A stretch of 26,104 nt of DNA from a virus. Of the stretch, positions 8,435-17,191 are shown piece by piece; position 1 is the first letter of the stretch, and each line of letters begins with the position of its first letter. Location of the stretch: IMG/VR virus record IMGVR_UViG_3300044960_000158, positions 1 to 26,104 of that record; one strand, 5' to 3'. Made by a program: the position numbers and the translations under genes. The notes under the pieces are model-generated. The model worked only from the letters and a program-made list of their open reading frames with translations. It ran no database searches and had not been told where the DNA came from.

Positions 8435-8450
8435 CGTTTCACGTGAAACA
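8435..8450. promoter_or_regulatory. parS centromere-like site
   Basis: CGTTTCACGTGAAACA lies between the helicase stop and the ParB-methyltransferase gene. The 14-base core GTTTCACGTGAAAC at 8436-8449 is a perfect palindrome and equals the parS core used by chromosomal ParB of Streptomyces and Mycobacterium. It differs at one outer base from the common 16-mer TGTTTCACGTGAAACA. No second copy is visible in the window. It lacks a loop and T-tract, so it is not a terminator. Confidence 0.8.
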
Positions 8451-8480: not shown

Positions 8481-10085
8481 GTGCCGGAAAGGTTCATTGA
8501 GTACATGGCGTTGGACGAGCTGGAGCCCGCTCCTCGCAACCCGAAGGATCACGCCCGCGACGCGATCAACGCATCACTTGACCGGTTCGGCTTTACCGAG
8601 CCGATCATGCTCGACGAGCGCACTGGCAGAATGGTCGCCGGTCACGGCAGGCGCGCCAAGCTGCTTGAGAAGCTCGCTGCCGGCGAGAGCGCACCGGACG
8701 GGATCATTGACCGTGACGGCCGATGGTTCGTGCCTGTCGTCCGAGGCTGGGCTAGCCGCTCAGACGATGACGCGGAAGCCTATCTAGTCGCGTCGAACCG
8801 ACTCGTTGAGCTTGGCGGCTGGTACGCGGACGAGCTGGCCTCGCTGCTCTCCGACCTCGCTCAGACTCCAGGCGGATTGAATGGCACCGGCTACGACGAC
8901 TCGACCCTGGACGGTCTGCTAGGGCAGCTAGGAAGCGAAACAGACGTCGTGACGCTCGGAGAACCCGAGCCGCAGGAACCGACAATCAACTTGGCTGCTC
9001 GGTTTCTTGTCCCGCCTTTCTCGGTCCTTGATGCCCGACAAGGCTACTGGCAGGCCAGGAAGCGAGAGTGGCTCGCTCTCGGCATCCGTAGCGAGGTAGG
9101 TCGGCCCCGCAATCTGCTCGGGATGAGCGAGCAGGCACGCACCGGATACCAGCAGCCGACCCGATCAACTGCTACGGCGTTCGACGACCCACAGTTCTGG
9201 TACAAGAAACGGCTCGCCGAGCGGCGTGTCGGCAGGTCGTTGACGACCCGAGAGTTCGTGGAGGAGCACTACGAGGGCCCCGACGCGTACTACGAGGGGA
9301 CGTCGGTGTTCGACCCGGTGCTGTGTGAACTCGCGTACCGCTGGTGGTGCCCACCGGGCGGTCGTGTCCTCGACCCGTTCGCTGGCGGTTCTGTACGTGG
9401 GATTGTCGCTGGCAAGCTAGGTCTCGGCTACCTCGGCGTCGAGCTGCGCCCCGAGCAGATCGCAGCCAACGAAGAACAGCGTGTGGTGATTCTCGGCGAT
9501 CACGCGCCTGTGAGCTGGATCGAAGGCGACAGCGAGGATGTCATCCCGAGCCTCGACAAGTGGGGGGTAACTGAGCCGTTCCACTTCCTGTTCTCATGCC
9601 CGCCGTGCTACGACCTAGAGCGTTACTCCGACGACCCTCGCGATTTGTCGAACATGTCGTGGCCGGCGTTCGTGGAGAAGTACCGAGCCATCATCAAAGC
9701 GTCGGTCGATCGCATGGAAGATGACTCGTTCGCCTGTTTCGTCGTCGGCGAGATCCGCGACAATGCTGGCATCAACCGGGCGTTTGTCCCTGAGACGATC
9801 GGCGCGTTCGCACGCGCAGGCGCCGCGTACTACAACGAGGCGATTCTCGTCACTCCGATAGGTGCGCTCGCTTTGCGAGCCGCACGCATCTTCAACGGGG
9901 CCCGCAAGCTGGGGCGAGCCCACCAAACCGTGCTTGTGTTCGTGAAGGGGGACCCGCAGCGCGCGGCGGACAAACTCGGCGAGCTGCAACTCCCCGATCC
10001 GGCGGAGCTGTTCCCGCATCTCTCCCCGGACGCTGCGTTCGAACCGGGAGCGTTCGACTCCGCTGAAGACGACACGGAACCGTAG
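8481..10085 (+). CDS. ParB/Srx-domain and DNA methyltransferase fusion
   Basis: The protein has 534 residues. Residues 1-85 form a ParB/sulfiredoxin-like domain: an N-terminal strand (IEYMALDELEPAPRNPKDH), then PIMLDERTGRMVAGHGRRAKLLEKL containing the GxxRR-type box. There is no obvious ParB DNA-binding helix-turn-helix afterwards. Residues about 250-510 are a methyltransferase with motif I DPFAGGSVRG at 298 and motif IV SCPPCYDLE at 372-380, a variant of the S/DPPY loop of amino-methylating DNA methyltransferases. ParB-methylase fusions are known in phages and mobile elements. The GTG start has a strong AGGAGG at 8469-8474 spaced six bases, and the parS palindrome lies 30 bases upstream. Two oxygenase/PLP-type genes follow, suggesting a modification operon. 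Confidence 0.8.
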   Translation: MPERFIEYMALDELEPAPRNPKDHARDAINASLDRFGFTEPIMLDERTGRMVAGHGRRAKLLEKLAAGESAPDGIIDRDGRWFVPVVRGWASRSDDDAEAYLVASNRLVELGGWYADELASLLSDLAQTPGGLNGTGYDDSTLDGLLGQLGSETDVVTLGEPEPQEPTINLAARFLVPPFSVLDARQGYWQARKREWLALGIRSEVGRPRNLLGMSEQARTGYQQPTRSTATAFDDPQFWYKKRLAERRVGRSLTTREFVEEHYEGPDAYYEGTSVFDPVLCELAYRWWCPPGGRVLDPFAGGSVRGIVAGKLGLGYLGVELRPEQIAANEEQRVVILGDHAPVSWIEGDSEDVIPSLDKWGVTEPFHFLFSCPPCYDLERYSDDPRDLSNMSWPAFVEKYRAIIKASVDRMEDDSFACFVVGEIRDNAGINRAFVPETIGAFARAGAAYYNEAILVTPIGALALRAARIFNGARKLGRAHQTVLVFVKGDPQRAADKLGELQLPDPAELFPHLSPDAAFEPGAFDSAEDDTEP

Positions 10086-10094
10086 GAGGCAGAT

Positions 10095-11204
10095 GTGGCA
10101 GACGACACGAAGCTGTGGCAGCGCGGCTTCCCGCTGGCGGAACTCCGCGCAGTCACAGACGACTTCGCGGCGTGGGACGACGGCCTCGTACTCGGAGCGT
10201 TCACCCGCGTGAAGGAGAACGCTGTCGCAGCGGCGCGCGCCGACGGAAAGCTGCTGTCGATAGGACAGTCACACGCCATCCACCACACCGTCGGTCGCCC
10301 GCTACCCATCAAGGATTTCACCGGCGCCGAACGGCTCGTCGCCCCAGCAGGGACCCTCGTCGTTGACCGATTCTGCGGTCCGGATGCAGTCACAGCGCTA
10401 GTCCGTGACGCCAGACACCGCCCAGTTGTCGTCCACGGCTGGATCGAACATCCTCGCGACTCGGACATCCTCACGAGCCTCGGTCTCCGGCTCGCAGCAG
10501 CCAAAATCAGGGCGTCGTCGGAGCTAATCGGCGTCTGGCATCGCGGCTGCTATCTCGGTCAGCCGATAGCCGACGCCGACACTTGGGCTCTGAGACCAGC
10601 ACCCGGCCTGCCGTCGCCTGTCACGCCCAACCAGGCCCGCGAGGAGCTGGACGCTGCGGCCGTCGAGTTCGCGGACCACTACTCGTCGTACAACGCCCGG
10701 CATTCCTGGCAGGCGTTCGCTTTGCGAAGCTTCGGAGGCGACCCGCTGTTCATTGAGAAGCCTGCGGAGATGAGCCGGAAGTGGAAGCACGAGCATCCCG
10801 ACGCGCTCGCATGGGACTGCGAATGGACGCCGGCAGCGGATCGGCTCCCGAGCCTCCGCGCGCTCGCGGAGAGCCTGCCAGCCCCAGTGGAACGGGTCAG
10901 GGTCATGAGGCTGCGAGCAGGCGACGGCGAGCTGACCAGGCACGCCGACATCACCGACCGATCCGCAGGCACCGCCCCCGGATGTCTGCTGCGCCTCCAC
11001 TGGCCGATCACCACGAACCCCGACGTCACGTTCACGGCGTGGACGCTCACCGGCGAACAGCAACGCGAGCATTTCGCCGCAGGCAAGTGGTGGTATCTCG
11101 ACACGCGGAAACCCCACGCCTGCGTCAACGCGGGTGAGACGGACCGCATCCACCTCGTGGTAGACGCGTGGAGCACCCCGGAACTCCTCGACGCTCTCCG
11201 ATGA
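10095..11204 (+). CDS. Two-domain protein ending in an Asp/Asn-hydroxylase-like 2OG-Fe(II) oxygenase
   Basis: The protein has 369 residues. The C-terminal third has the aspartyl/asparaginyl beta-hydroxylase pattern: RVMRLRAGDGELTRHADI, LRLHWPITTNPDVTF, GKWWYLDTRKPHACVN and DRIHLVVDAW. Iron ligands would be H283, D285 and H341, and R351 would bind 2-oxoglutarate. The N-terminal 170 residues are unfamiliar; the end (HPRDSDILTSLGLRL, then ELIGVW) faintly recalls a GNAT acetyltransferase fold, which I do not assert. Substrate could be DNA, a modified base precursor or a protein. AGGAGG at 10084-10089 precedes GTG 10095; ATG 10093 is in another frame. It overlaps the next gene by ATGA and follows the ParB-methylase by nine bases. 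Confidence 0.66.
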   Translation: MADDTKLWQRGFPLAELRAVTDDFAAWDDGLVLGAFTRVKENAVAAARADGKLLSIGQSHAIHHTVGRPLPIKDFTGAERLVAPAGTLVVDRFCGPDAVTALVRDARHRPVVVHGWIEHPRDSDILTSLGLRLAAAKIRASSELIGVWHRGCYLGQPIADADTWALRPAPGLPSPVTPNQAREELDAAAVEFADHYSSYNARHSWQAFALRSFGGDPLFIEKPAEMSRKWKHEHPDALAWDCEWTPAADRLPSLRALAESLPAPVERVRVMRLRAGDGELTRHADITDRSAGTAPGCLLRLHWPITTNPDVTFTAWTLTGEQQREHFAAGKWWYLDTRKPHACVNAGETDRIHLVVDAWSTPELLDALR

Positions 11205-11521
11205 CCGTCGACAGGTTCCCGCCACCAGTCGTTGACCATCTCGACGTTGATGGCCGCGAACTGCTGGTAGTGCGAGACGACCTGATTCCTGGCGGCACGA
11301 AGCTGCGTGTGCTGCCGCGCATCATGGCCGACGACCCACACGACGAGTTCGTGTTCGGTGGGCCCGCACAAGGCTACGCCCAAGTCGCGCTAGGCCACGC
11401 CGCCGCGATCACAGGCAAGACCGCCACGTATTTCGTTGCTCGCCGGACGCAGCTACATCCATTGACTGAGCCGCTCAAAGCACGCGCCGCTAAGATCGCG
11501 CGCGAGGTCTGCACAGCTTAG
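11201..11521 (+). CDS. Short PLP-fold protein resembling the N-terminus of ACC deaminase/D-cysteine desulfhydrase
   Basis: The 106 residues contain LLVVRDDLIPGGTKLRVLP followed by FVFGGPAQGYAQVALGHAAAITG. This is the arrangement of the fold-type II PLP enzymes of the ACC deaminase/D-cysteine desulfhydrase group: RDDL, GGNK with the Schiff-base lysine (here K34 in GGTK), then a Gly/Ser/Asn-rich phosphate loop. Full-length relatives have about 330 residues, so two thirds are absent, and the usual QSNH loop reads AQGY. It may be a reduced enzyme that works with the oxygenase or methylase, or a truncated relic. The ATG overlaps the oxygenase stop as ATGA and the gene is followed by a terminator, so it closes the operon. 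Confidence 0.55.
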   Translation: MTVDRFPPPVVDHLDVDGRELLVVRDDLIPGGTKLRVLPRIMADDPHDEFVFGGPAQGYAQVALGHAAAITGKTATYFVARRTQLHPLTEPLKARAAKIAREVCTA

Positions 11522-11581: not shown

Positions 11582-11628
11582 AGGCGCCCGGTTCGGTCGG
11601 TTGAGGCTGCCTCCCGAACCGGGCGCCT
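11582..11628 (+). terminator. Strong stem-loop terminator
   Basis: A perfect 15-bp stem pairs 11582-11596 (AGGCGCCCGGTTCGG) with 11614-11628, around a 17-base loop, and is followed by a pyrimidine-rich TCCCCCTTTCCCC. It lies 60 bases after the PLP-like gene and just before a promoter, so it probably closes the replication/modification transcript. The 60 bases before it are GC-rich and hold no gene. Confidence 0.72.
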
Positions 11629-15459: not shown

Positions 15460-16128
15460 ATGGACGAACGCCACGCGACGGCCGTAGCTGACGCTTGGGA
15501 GGAGGCGGCCCGCCGCGTCGACTATCGAGCCGCTATCCATCCGCTCGGCTCGGACCTCGCCGCGTACCGCGCATCGGGCGAGACGCTCGCCGCGCATCTC
15601 TCGGACCTCGCAGCGGCGTGGCTGCCGAAGGGGCGCCGACGCGACGTCATCGAGGTCGGGGTCGGCGACGGCCGCATCGCCGGCCCGCTAGCACGCCTCG
15701 GCTGGAAGGTGACTGGCCTCGACACATCCCCGACGATGCTGCGCCATCTCGCCGACAACTACCCTGAGGTAGACGGCGTGCTGATCGACCCGGCAGGCCC
15801 GCTCCCGAAGCTGCGAGCGAGCGTGGTGTTCGCGGTCGCTGTCCTGATCCACCAGTCGGTCGCGAACGGGCAGGAGATGGTGCGGGAATGGGCGGGGCTG
15901 CTGCGACCTGGCGGGGTGATGCTCCTCCACATCCCGCTCTACGACGAGCCGAGGGAGGGGGAACATTGGACCGACGTGACAGTCTGGACGGTCGGCGGGC
16001 TCTGCGCCGCGGCAGAATCCGCGGGTCTGATTGTCGAGCGAGCCGAAGCGAACCCCGGCGTGTTCTCGTTCGACGCGGTCGGCCCGAACCACGCCGCGAT
16101 CCACGTCCTCTGCAAGCCGGACCGCTGA
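15460..16128 (+). CDS. Class I SAM-dependent methyltransferase
   Basis: A protein of 222 residues. Motif I is IEVGVGDGRIAG at about 64-75, followed by VTGLDTSPTMLRHL (motif II, acidic residue contacting the ribose), then a strand VVFAVAVLIHQ and LLRPGGVMLLHIP as the post-I loop. The fold matches small-molecule or sugar methyltransferases rather than DNA methylases; no catalytic NPPY-type loop is present. Its neighbours are two glycosyltransferases, so methylation of a sugar or of a glycosylated virion protein is the likely job. The AAAGGGGA before ATG 15460 is a good ribosome-binding site. Confidence 0.78.
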   Translation: MDERHATAVADAWEEAARRVDYRAAIHPLGSDLAAYRASGETLAAHLSDLAAAWLPKGRRRDVIEVGVGDGRIAGPLARLGWKVTGLDTSPTMLRHLADNYPEVDGVLIDPAGPLPKLRASVVFAVAVLIHQSVANGQEMVREWAGLLRPGGVMLLHIPLYDEPREGEHWTDVTVWTVGGLCAAAESAGLIVERAEANPGVFSFDAVGPNHAAIHVLCKPDR

Positions 16129-16154
16129 CCGCTGGCTTGGCGAGGGACGCAGCC

Positions 16155-16235
16155 GTGGGGCTTCTGGTCGGCGTCGTCATAGTAGGCGTCGCTGTCGGGG
16201 TAGCGGAGATCCTCAGGTGGAGGCTTGACAGGTGA
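16155..16235 (+). CDS. Miniature 26-residue membrane peptide
   Basis: GTG 16155, preceded by GAGGGA at 16142-16147, opens 26 residues of which about 18 are Val/Gly/Leu/Ile (GLLVGVVIVGVAVGVAEIL), a plausible single membrane span. It ends with RWRLDR. The stop overlaps the glycosyltransferase start as GTGA. TTG 16137 would add six residues. It may be a short anchor protein; coding status is uncertain because the gene is very small. Confidence 0.35.
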   Translation: MGLLVGVVIVGVAVGVAEILRWRLDR

Positions 16236-17191
16236 GGGTTCTCGCGCACGTCCATCTGTACCCGCCATCTCATAACGCTGGCGCGGAATGGGCGTTGCAT
16301 TCGACGCTCCGGCATCTCCGAGCCGAATACGACGCTGATGTCAGCGTGATCACGAACCGCCCGCCTCGCCGCCACGACACGTTCCAGGGGGTGCGGGTGT
16401 CGATGATCCGGGACCCTCGACGGGCCCGCAGCCTGTACCGTGACGCTGACGTGATCGTCACGCATCTCGACGCGACCAGACAGGCAATCGCGTGTGCTCA
16501 GCGTGAGCGGCGACCCCTCGTGCATCTCGTCCACAACGACCGTCAGCTCGCGTACCATCGCGTAACCCGAGAGGAGGCGCATCTCGTCTGCTTCAACTCG
16601 CGATGGATCGCTGAGACTGTCGAATGGGATGGCCCGTCGATGGTGCTGCACCCGCCGGTGTGGGTCGCTGACTACCGGCCTGCGCCCGGACCGCACGACG
16701 CTGTGCTCCTCCTGAACCTCGCCGCAGCGAAGGGCGCACGGACCTTCTACGCTTTAGCCGCTCGGTTCCCGACGACCCGGTTCGTTGGGGTGCGTGGCGC
16801 CTACGCCGCGCAGACTGAGCCTCCCCCCGGGCTGTCGAACGTGTCGGTCGTCGAGAACACTCCGGATGTCGCAGCGCTGTACGCCCAGGCGCGGGTCGTG
16901 CTGATGCCGTCCCACTACGAATCGTGGGGGCGCGTAGCAGTCGAGGCCGCAGCAGCACGCGTCCCGACGCTCGCAGCACCCACACCAGGGCTCCGTGAGA
17001 CAGGTGTCCCCGCGGGTTTCGCCGCGCACGACGACATCGACGAATGGGAACGGCTCCTGCGTCGACTCCTCAACGACGACGACGCATGGGGCGAGGCCGC
17101 CACCCGAGCCCACGCGCGGGCTGTCGCGCTCGAAGCGGAGTCCCGAGATCAGCTCGCCGACCTCGCTGAACGGCTGGGGTCGCTGTGCTGA
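16232..17191 (+). CDS. GT4-like glycosyltransferase
   Basis: The 319 residues form a GT-B-fold glycosyltransferase. The N-terminal domain opens with MRVLAHVHLYPPSHNAGAEW, the nucleotide-sugar transferase signature of a strand followed by a Gly-rich loop. The C-terminal domain has HYESWGRVAVEAAA with the EX7E motif (E230, E238) that binds the donor nucleotide sugar. It probably transfers a hexose to a phage structural protein. The start GTG overlaps a preceding mini-gene and the end overlaps the next glycosyltransferase, forming a cassette. Confidence 0.8.
   Translation: MRVLAHVHLYPPSHNAGAEWALHSTLRHLRAEYDADVSVITNRPPRRHDTFQGVRVSMIRDPRRARSLYRDADVIVTHLDATRQAIACAQRERRPLVHLVHNDRQLAYHRVTREEAHLVCFNSRWIAETVEWDGPSMVLHPPVWVADYRPAPGPHDAVLLLNLAAAKGARTFYALAARFPTTRFVGVRGAYAAQTEPPPGLSNVSVVENTPDVAALYAQARVVLMPSHYESWGRVAVEAAAARVPTLAAPTPGLRETGVPAGFAAHDDIDEWERLLRRLLNDDDAWGEAATRAHARAVALEAESRDQLADLAERLGSLC

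Follow-up and report, generated by a model that had tools for sequence, protein, structure and literature searches.

What might be the joint task of three adjacent phage genes that encode a ParB-domain protein of DNA amino-methyltransferase fold, an oxygenase dependent on Fe(II) and 2-oxoglutarate (2OG) and a pyridoxal 5′-phosphate (PLP)-type protein? The question arises from IMG/VR viral record IMGVR_UViG_3300044960_000158, analysed here as a complete record of 26,104 bases with a GC content of 67.6% (hereafter, the window). The genes, referred to as MT, OX and PL, are the following.

8481-10085, + strand: MT, GTG start, TAG stop, 534 amino acids; ParB domain plus permuted transferase of the DNA amino-methyltransferase fold
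10095-11204, + strand: OX, GTG start, TGA stop, 369 amino acids; two-domain Fe(II)/2OG oxygenase
11201-11521, + strand: PL, ATG start, TAG stop, 106 amino acids; truncated fold-type-II PLP enzyme

We see about an even chance that they belong to an operon for hypermodification of phage DNA bases, in which MT would transfer the 3-amino-3-carboxypropyl (acp) arm of S-adenosylmethionine (SAM, or AdoMet) and PL and OX would tailor the amino acid thus placed on the base. In this model we infer that an acp or aminopropyl group is transferred, along with the base and the order of steps, that DNA is the target and that the modification serves to protect it from restriction. That MT, OX and PL constitute one conserved, often fused functional unit is well supported by the distribution and architecture of their relatives.

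Viral contigs were scanned with OX (30 loci), PL (23 loci) and an OX alignment (80 loci) as queries, and with MT alignments, which gave at least ~580-590 confirmed relatives each. Among the 70 loci newly fetched with the OX alignment, 48 carried MT, OX and PL, 16 MT and OX, four OX and PL and two OX alone, so that OX was accompanied by MT and/or PL in 68 of 70. In the PL scan, MT was present at 20 of 23 loci (one MT being a fragment and one a weak match). An MT scan unbiased towards OX or PL comprised 77 loci, with PL in 21 and OX in seven, six of the latter also having PL. The recurrent neighbours other than PL, OX and SpeD (see below) were mainly packaging genes, largely terminase subunits. 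The cassette is far beyond chance, as its genes are found next to one another again in dozens of viral contigs that are unrelated. A preliminary description of the window, made from the sequence alone, had named non-conserved or separately inherited genes as a finding that would speak against its proposal; instead, they co-occur across many viral loci. Outside viruses, a search of cellular genomes (84,980 species) for the OX family yielded 33 pattern matches, none of which was a relative by tblastn. Contigs of up to 150-170 kb (L207-L218) carry a divergent set of OX, PL and an MT-like protein of 532 amino acids with no ParB match.

Gene fusions tie the three proteins together physically. A single protein of 1218 amino acids (L002) has the order ParB-MT(N)-PL-OX-MT(C), and the same domain order is divided between two open frames in L008. 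In Erythrobacter phages ZS04 and R6L and Pseudanabaena phage Pam4, PL is inserted within MT (MT-PL-MT). MT-OX fusions occur in L072 and L150, and in the former, which has the closest MT relative by identity (56%) among the matches listed, OX is joined to the C-terminus of MT. The insertion point of PL lies between motifs I and IV of MT. The fusions argue strongly that the proteins work at a single site and on a common substrate. The multi-step cassette proposed in the preliminary description is thus well supported as a single unit, by conserved order, translational coupling and repeated fusions; a methylated base as its starting point is not.

The features of MT itself are as follows:

8481-8945, + strand: ParB N-terminal (CTPase-type) domain, residues about 1-155, no match to a DNA-binding helix-turn-helix (HTH)
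9372-9410, + strand: motif I, DPFAGGSVRGIVA, residues 298-310, including G303 and R306
9591-9626, + strand: motif IV, FSCPPCYDLERY, residues 371-382, including Cys373 and the Tyr376 position

The ParB and amino-methylase motifs reported earlier for this gene are borne out by assignments to PHROG 498/12517/15396 and by PDB profile matches to Spo0J/Noc/ParB and to DNA methylases. The match to the PHROG ‘DNA methyltransferase’ is strong (E 7.6e-97); against Pfam N6_N4_Mtase the window MT scores 23.8 bits with a cut-off of 26.7, which some of its relatives exceed. The ParB profile matches are confined to model positions about 4-149, with the MT domain coming next, and MT does not appear to be a ParB partition protein, which would combine a CTP clamp with a parS-binding HTH. 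Canonical amino-methyltransferases have Asp, Asn or Ser before the PP of motif IV, (D/N/S)PP(Y/F/W). All 162 aligned members of the MT family have Cys373 at this position, and motif IV thus seems to lack the catalytic residue expected of a DNA N6/N4 amino-methyltransferase. The idea that Cys373 is dictated by the partner gene was rejected, as the residue is family-wide and includes solo MTs.

A second line of evidence comes from a sister clade of MT (L064, L068, L219-L293), in which a gene for AdoMet decarboxylase (SpeD) lies directly downstream of MT in 48 of 76 loci, mostly overlapping it by some 10-40 bases. A viral scan with the SpeD protein as query gave one locus. The catalytic Ser/His/Cys of SpeD are kept in 52 of 52 sequences and the Pro of HTxPE in 51. 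A Pro separates AdoMet decarboxylase from arginine decarboxylase, according to PMC10407285; on the assumption that the HTxPE Pro is this diagnostic residue, the sequences fit a true AdoMet decarboxylase. Among 186 distinct MTs, a sample enriched by the OX and PL queries, 46 were at SpeD loci, 76 were with PL and/or OX and 64 had none of these; no SpeD locus had PL or OX. Motif I reads DPFAGGSVRG in PL/OX-linked and solo MTs and D(P/C)FAGD(S/T)VFG in SpeD-linked ones, R306 being replaced by F and G303 by D in 47/47 SpeD-linked versus 0/53 PL/OX-linked proteins. In class I methyltransferases, motif I touches the methionine part of SAM, and for this reason the loss of Arg and gain of Asp fit a donor free of the carboxylate.

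The SpeD pairing and the partner-linked change in motif I therefore point to transfer of the aminocarboxypropyl or aminopropyl arm of SAM and, together with the invariant Cys373, speak against a methylated base as the start. In the proposed mechanism, MT would flip out a base in phage DNA and transfer to it the acp arm of SAM, not the methyl group. In the sister clade, the neighbouring SpeD would first decarboxylate SAM, so that an aminopropyl group is transferred, with PL and OX unneeded; as both of these would require an α-amino acid, they would belong to the acp branch only, which would account for their absence from every SpeD locus. The clade thus suggests aminopropylation of DNA. The arrangement resembles spermidine synthesis, where SpeD supplies decarboxylated SAM to a Rossmann-fold aminopropyltransferase, much as SpeD directly follows MT here. 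It differs in that MT is a protein of DNA-methyltransferase type, and in that no clear aminopropyltransferase or spermidine synthase match was found in the complete genomes of SpeD phages ZRG1 and P2559S. For the ParB-‘methyltransferase’ family at large (at least about 580 viral loci), we put acp or aminopropyl transfer to DNA, in place of methylation, slightly below even.

Another scheme, in outline that of the preliminary description, would make MT a conventional N6/N4 methyltransferase, with OX oxidising either the base or its methyl group and PL providing or attaching a fragment of an amino acid. MT is indeed related to N6_N4_Mtase and contains the amino-methyltransferase motif elements, in permuted order, and many of its members stand without a partner gene. 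We nevertheless consider this scheme unlikely: it has to accommodate Cys in place of Asp/Asn/Ser throughout the 162 sequences, it leaves the SpeD partner and the motif I switch unexplained, and the closest relatives of OX have amino-acid carbons as their targets rather than N-methyl groups.

PL proved to be a fragment. Its K34, within VRDDLIPGGTK34LR, aligns with the PLP-lysine motif of PHROG 7093 and of PALP relatives, in agreement with the earlier observation of such a motif. Relatives of PL have about 226-289 amino acids; the full-length ones share VRDDLIPGG(T/S)KxR, a GSG loop and a C-terminal YDxKxW...FWNV signature, and one was modelled by AlphaFold with a predicted local distance difference test (pLDDT) score of 95. 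Foldseek matches were to D-cysteine desulfhydrase and a 1-aminocyclopropane-1-carboxylate deaminase homologue (1j0a; template modelling (TM) score 0.86 on the query). With the Lys, the Gly loop and a complete fold, the full-length relatives are predicted fold-type-II PLP (PALP) enzymes. The window PL stops after the first 80-90 conserved residues; it retains the Lys and, lacking the GSG phosphate loop and the C-terminal half, would not qualify as one. Nothing scoring significantly for the remainder of PL was found anywhere in the window. The ‘PLP mini-protein’ of the preliminary description is hence a truncated enzyme; a natural mini-protein was rejected, since the relatives have at least ~230 residues and the absent half is not encoded elsewhere in the window. 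In Mycobacterium phage Vincenzo (L062:1406-2275), the gene after MT is a divergent PL of full length, which is annotated as ‘carboxylate deaminase’.

Intact PL, a minimal fold-type-II enzyme, would rework the base-borne α-amino acid by deamination, elimination or epimerisation, like its closest relatives. It could also be viewed as the actual transferase, generating PLP-bound vinylglycine or aminoacrylate from SAM or serine for attack by the flipped base, with MT acting as a base-flipping, SAM-binding scaffold. The insertion of PL between motifs I and IV of MT in several fusions would agree with this, and PLP-dependent transfer of the SAM arm to nucleosides occurs in nucleoside antibiotics (Mur24). 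Many MT loci, however, have no PL, and the MTs of the SpeD clade must function in its absence, which makes a transferase role of PL quite improbable.

OX, to which the model of acp transfer assigns hydroxylation of the amino-acid chain, consists of two parts:

10095-10544, + strand: N-terminal domain, residues 1-150, GNAT-like element order a-a-b-b-b-a-b-a-b-b
10638-11174, + strand: oxygenase domain (Asp_Arg_Hydrox), residues 182-360, with H283, D285 and H341 as metal ligands and R351 as 2OG anchor

The H-x-D...H...R site noticed previously was confirmed by a match to Pfam Asp_Arg_Hydrox (PF05118, E 1.3e-10) and by the invariance of H283-x-D285, H341 and R351 in 20 OX sequences. With the HxD...H triad and the 2OG Arg located in a double-stranded β-helix of the AlphaFold model (pLDDT 95, predicted TM score (pTM) 0.89), OX is predicted to be a 2OG oxygenase of the Asp/Asn β-hydroxylase type. 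The N-terminal domain, described from the outset as novel, remained so after profile searches and structure prediction: residues 1-150 have no family match in Pfam, PHROG or profile searches (best GNAT family E not below 0.2), and the fold is confident, GNAT-like in the order of its elements and devoid of the R-x-x-G-x-G coenzyme A loop. Assignment to GNAT by sequence was rejected, as there is no match. Mom of phage Mu, which forms N6-carbamoylmethyladenine, is a precedent for a GNAT-type fold serving DNA-base modification without acetyl-CoA chemistry. The likeness lies in the GNAT-like element order; unlike Mom, OX gives no sequence match, includes an oxygenase domain and has MT and PL as partners. 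In one locus (L026:1109-2983), the conserved HYSSYN motif of the OX gene is interrupted by an intein-like insert of ~226 amino acids, which includes a LAGLIDADG-like stretch.

The solved structures closest to OX are L-proline cis-4-hydroxylase (E 5e-10) and, second, 7v4f, which is Cpz10 (E 4e-9). Cpz10 β-hydroxylates a four-carbon acp-like chain, proposed to be SAM-derived, on 5′-C-glycyluridine, and Mur23, a PLP enzyme from the related pathway to muraymycin, decarboxylates that same group (PMC9814697). OX would likewise hydroxylate the carbon chain of the base-borne amino acid, as Cpz10 does on the acp-nucleoside. The caprazamycin/muraymycin system (Cpz13-Cpz10-Mur23; PMC9814697) therefore resembles the cassette in having a SAM-derived acp arm on a nucleoside, which is hydroxylated by Cpz10 or decarboxylated by a PLP enzyme, Cpz10 being the second-ranked fold family for OX. 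Those enzymes act on the free nucleoside, whereas the proposed target of the cassette is DNA. To our knowledge, the acp-transfer and decarboxylation enzymes of these pathways are not homologous to MT or PL.

The sole other full-length OX in BFVD is gp4 of Mycobacterium phage LilMcDreamy (TM 0.82). Its locus (L055:1-3759) has the order ParB, a Tet_JBP-like protein (E 2e-3), ADDT (Pfam ‘Amino acid:DNA transferase’, E 3e-12) and the OX homologue, a context which groups OX with enzymes attaching amino acids to DNA bases. From its gene content, this locus is likely a thymine hypermodification operon under misleading names; the Tet_JBP-like protein is annotated as queuine tRNA-ribosyltransferase. 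Phage thymine hypermodification (Tet/JBP-like oxygenase, kinase, aGPT-PPlase/ADDT, PLP enzymes) is like the cassette in that several enzymes in turn equip a DNA base with an amino-acid or amine group, and the OX homologue beside ADDT and the weak Tet_JBP match adds to the likeness. It is unlike it in that the first step of the cassette falls to a SAM-binding ParB-transferase. No 5-hydroxymethyl-pyrimidine kinase, aGPT-PPlase or other thymine-pathway gene was reported in the Pfam/PHROG scan of the main genes of the window, which represents a partial genome.

The target might instead be RNA or protein, and ParB-like domains are also found in proteins of other roles. This we regard as highly doubtful, since MT is of the DNA amino-methyltransferase class, has a ParB domain and adjoins terminase genes in many phages, and the OX homologue is located with ADDT. 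Very little credence is due to a counter-defence role, in which SpeD and PL destroy SAM in the manner of phage SAM lyases, starving host restriction-modification, with MT and OX serving separate functions: phage-encoded SAM-degrading anti-restriction enzymes exist (PMC7877911), but PL and OX are fused into MT, adjacency is strict, the motif I change is coupled and SAM depletion would disable the neighbouring MT.

Several points weigh against the transfer of a SAM arm to DNA. In one MT scan, 55 of 77 loci had no nearby PL, OX or SpeD, and their MTs could be plain methyltransferases. We know of no fold-type-II PLP enzyme that acts on DNA-bound substrates, and R306 is placed at the SAM carboxylate from general knowledge of motif I. 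The SpeD clade and its F306 change represent a single evolutionary event, i.e. a correlation by descent, and the mutual exclusion of SpeD and PL/OX found no independent statistical support, F306 being one clade with too few independent pairs. Some phage SpeD homologues, moreover, decarboxylate ornithine or arginine instead of SAM, as stated in PMC10407285.

In the window, judging from its genes a partial genome of a tailed phage (replication initiator, DnaC-like protein, sliding clamp, helicase, terminase subunits and portal protein in the annotation scan), MT, OX and PL sit between the helicase and terminase genes. The tight coupling first described is present: a 9-base gap separates MT from OX, with a Shine-Dalgarno-like GGAGG overlapping the MT stop, and OX and PL overlap by ATGA. 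MT and OX are open frames with GC-rich third positions. The MT of the window is unique among the 162 in its motif IV, CPPC, where Tyr376 is replaced by Cys, and alone has His at Asp368. As PL is truncated and motif IV altered, this copy may stop early or be inactive, and the cassette of the window may make an unfinished modification or be decaying. Two further elements flank the genes:

8435-8450, no strand: parS-like palindrome, CGTTTCACGTGAAACA, 30 bp before the MT start codon, one mismatch
11582-11628, + strand: strong hairpin closing the operon, -41.2 kcal/mol for 81 nt, z -3.4, no T-run

The ‘strong terminator’ of the preliminary description is thus a very strong hairpin, which the terminator scan omits because it has no run of T. 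The palindrome is the one site in the window in a parS scan allowing up to three mismatches (0.02 expected). Siting of the modification by parS, one of the options suggested earlier, is unlikely to be general, because the ParB match is N-terminal only and the site is absent from 218 other loci; parS was rejected as a general targeting site on the latter count, and the palindrome is perhaps a host ParB site. Elsewhere in the window, a small-molecule-type methyltransferase and a GT4 glycosyltransferase, which could decorate DNA or capsid, lie between terminase and portal genes (15460-17191), and a second, divergent methyltransferase-like gene (Methyltransf_11, E 3e-5) is found at 2181-2933.

The interest of the cassette lies in the family, not in the copy of the window. 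No published description of it was found in literature coverage that was partial and left key papers of the field outside, and an earlier prediction is possible. Complex phage DNA modification is already known, and the SAM-arm route appears to be a new variant. The model lends itself to direct testing, since intact versions exist in cultured phages, of the PL type in Vincenzo, Erythrobacter R6L and ZS04, Microcystis Mae-JY30 and Pseudanabaena Pam4, and of the SpeD type in Croceibacter P2559S and Pseudomonas ZRG1. The modification would protect phage DNA from restriction. Known complex phage bases mostly begin from 5-hydroxymethyl-pyrimidines or deazaguanines; the model, if true, would open a new way into such bases, from the amino-acid arm of SAM, and would require many genes annotated as DNA methyltransferase or ParB to be reclassified. 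It would also bring PLP and amino-acid-hydroxylase chemistry to DNA, and with it a class of amine- or amino-acid-bearing bases.

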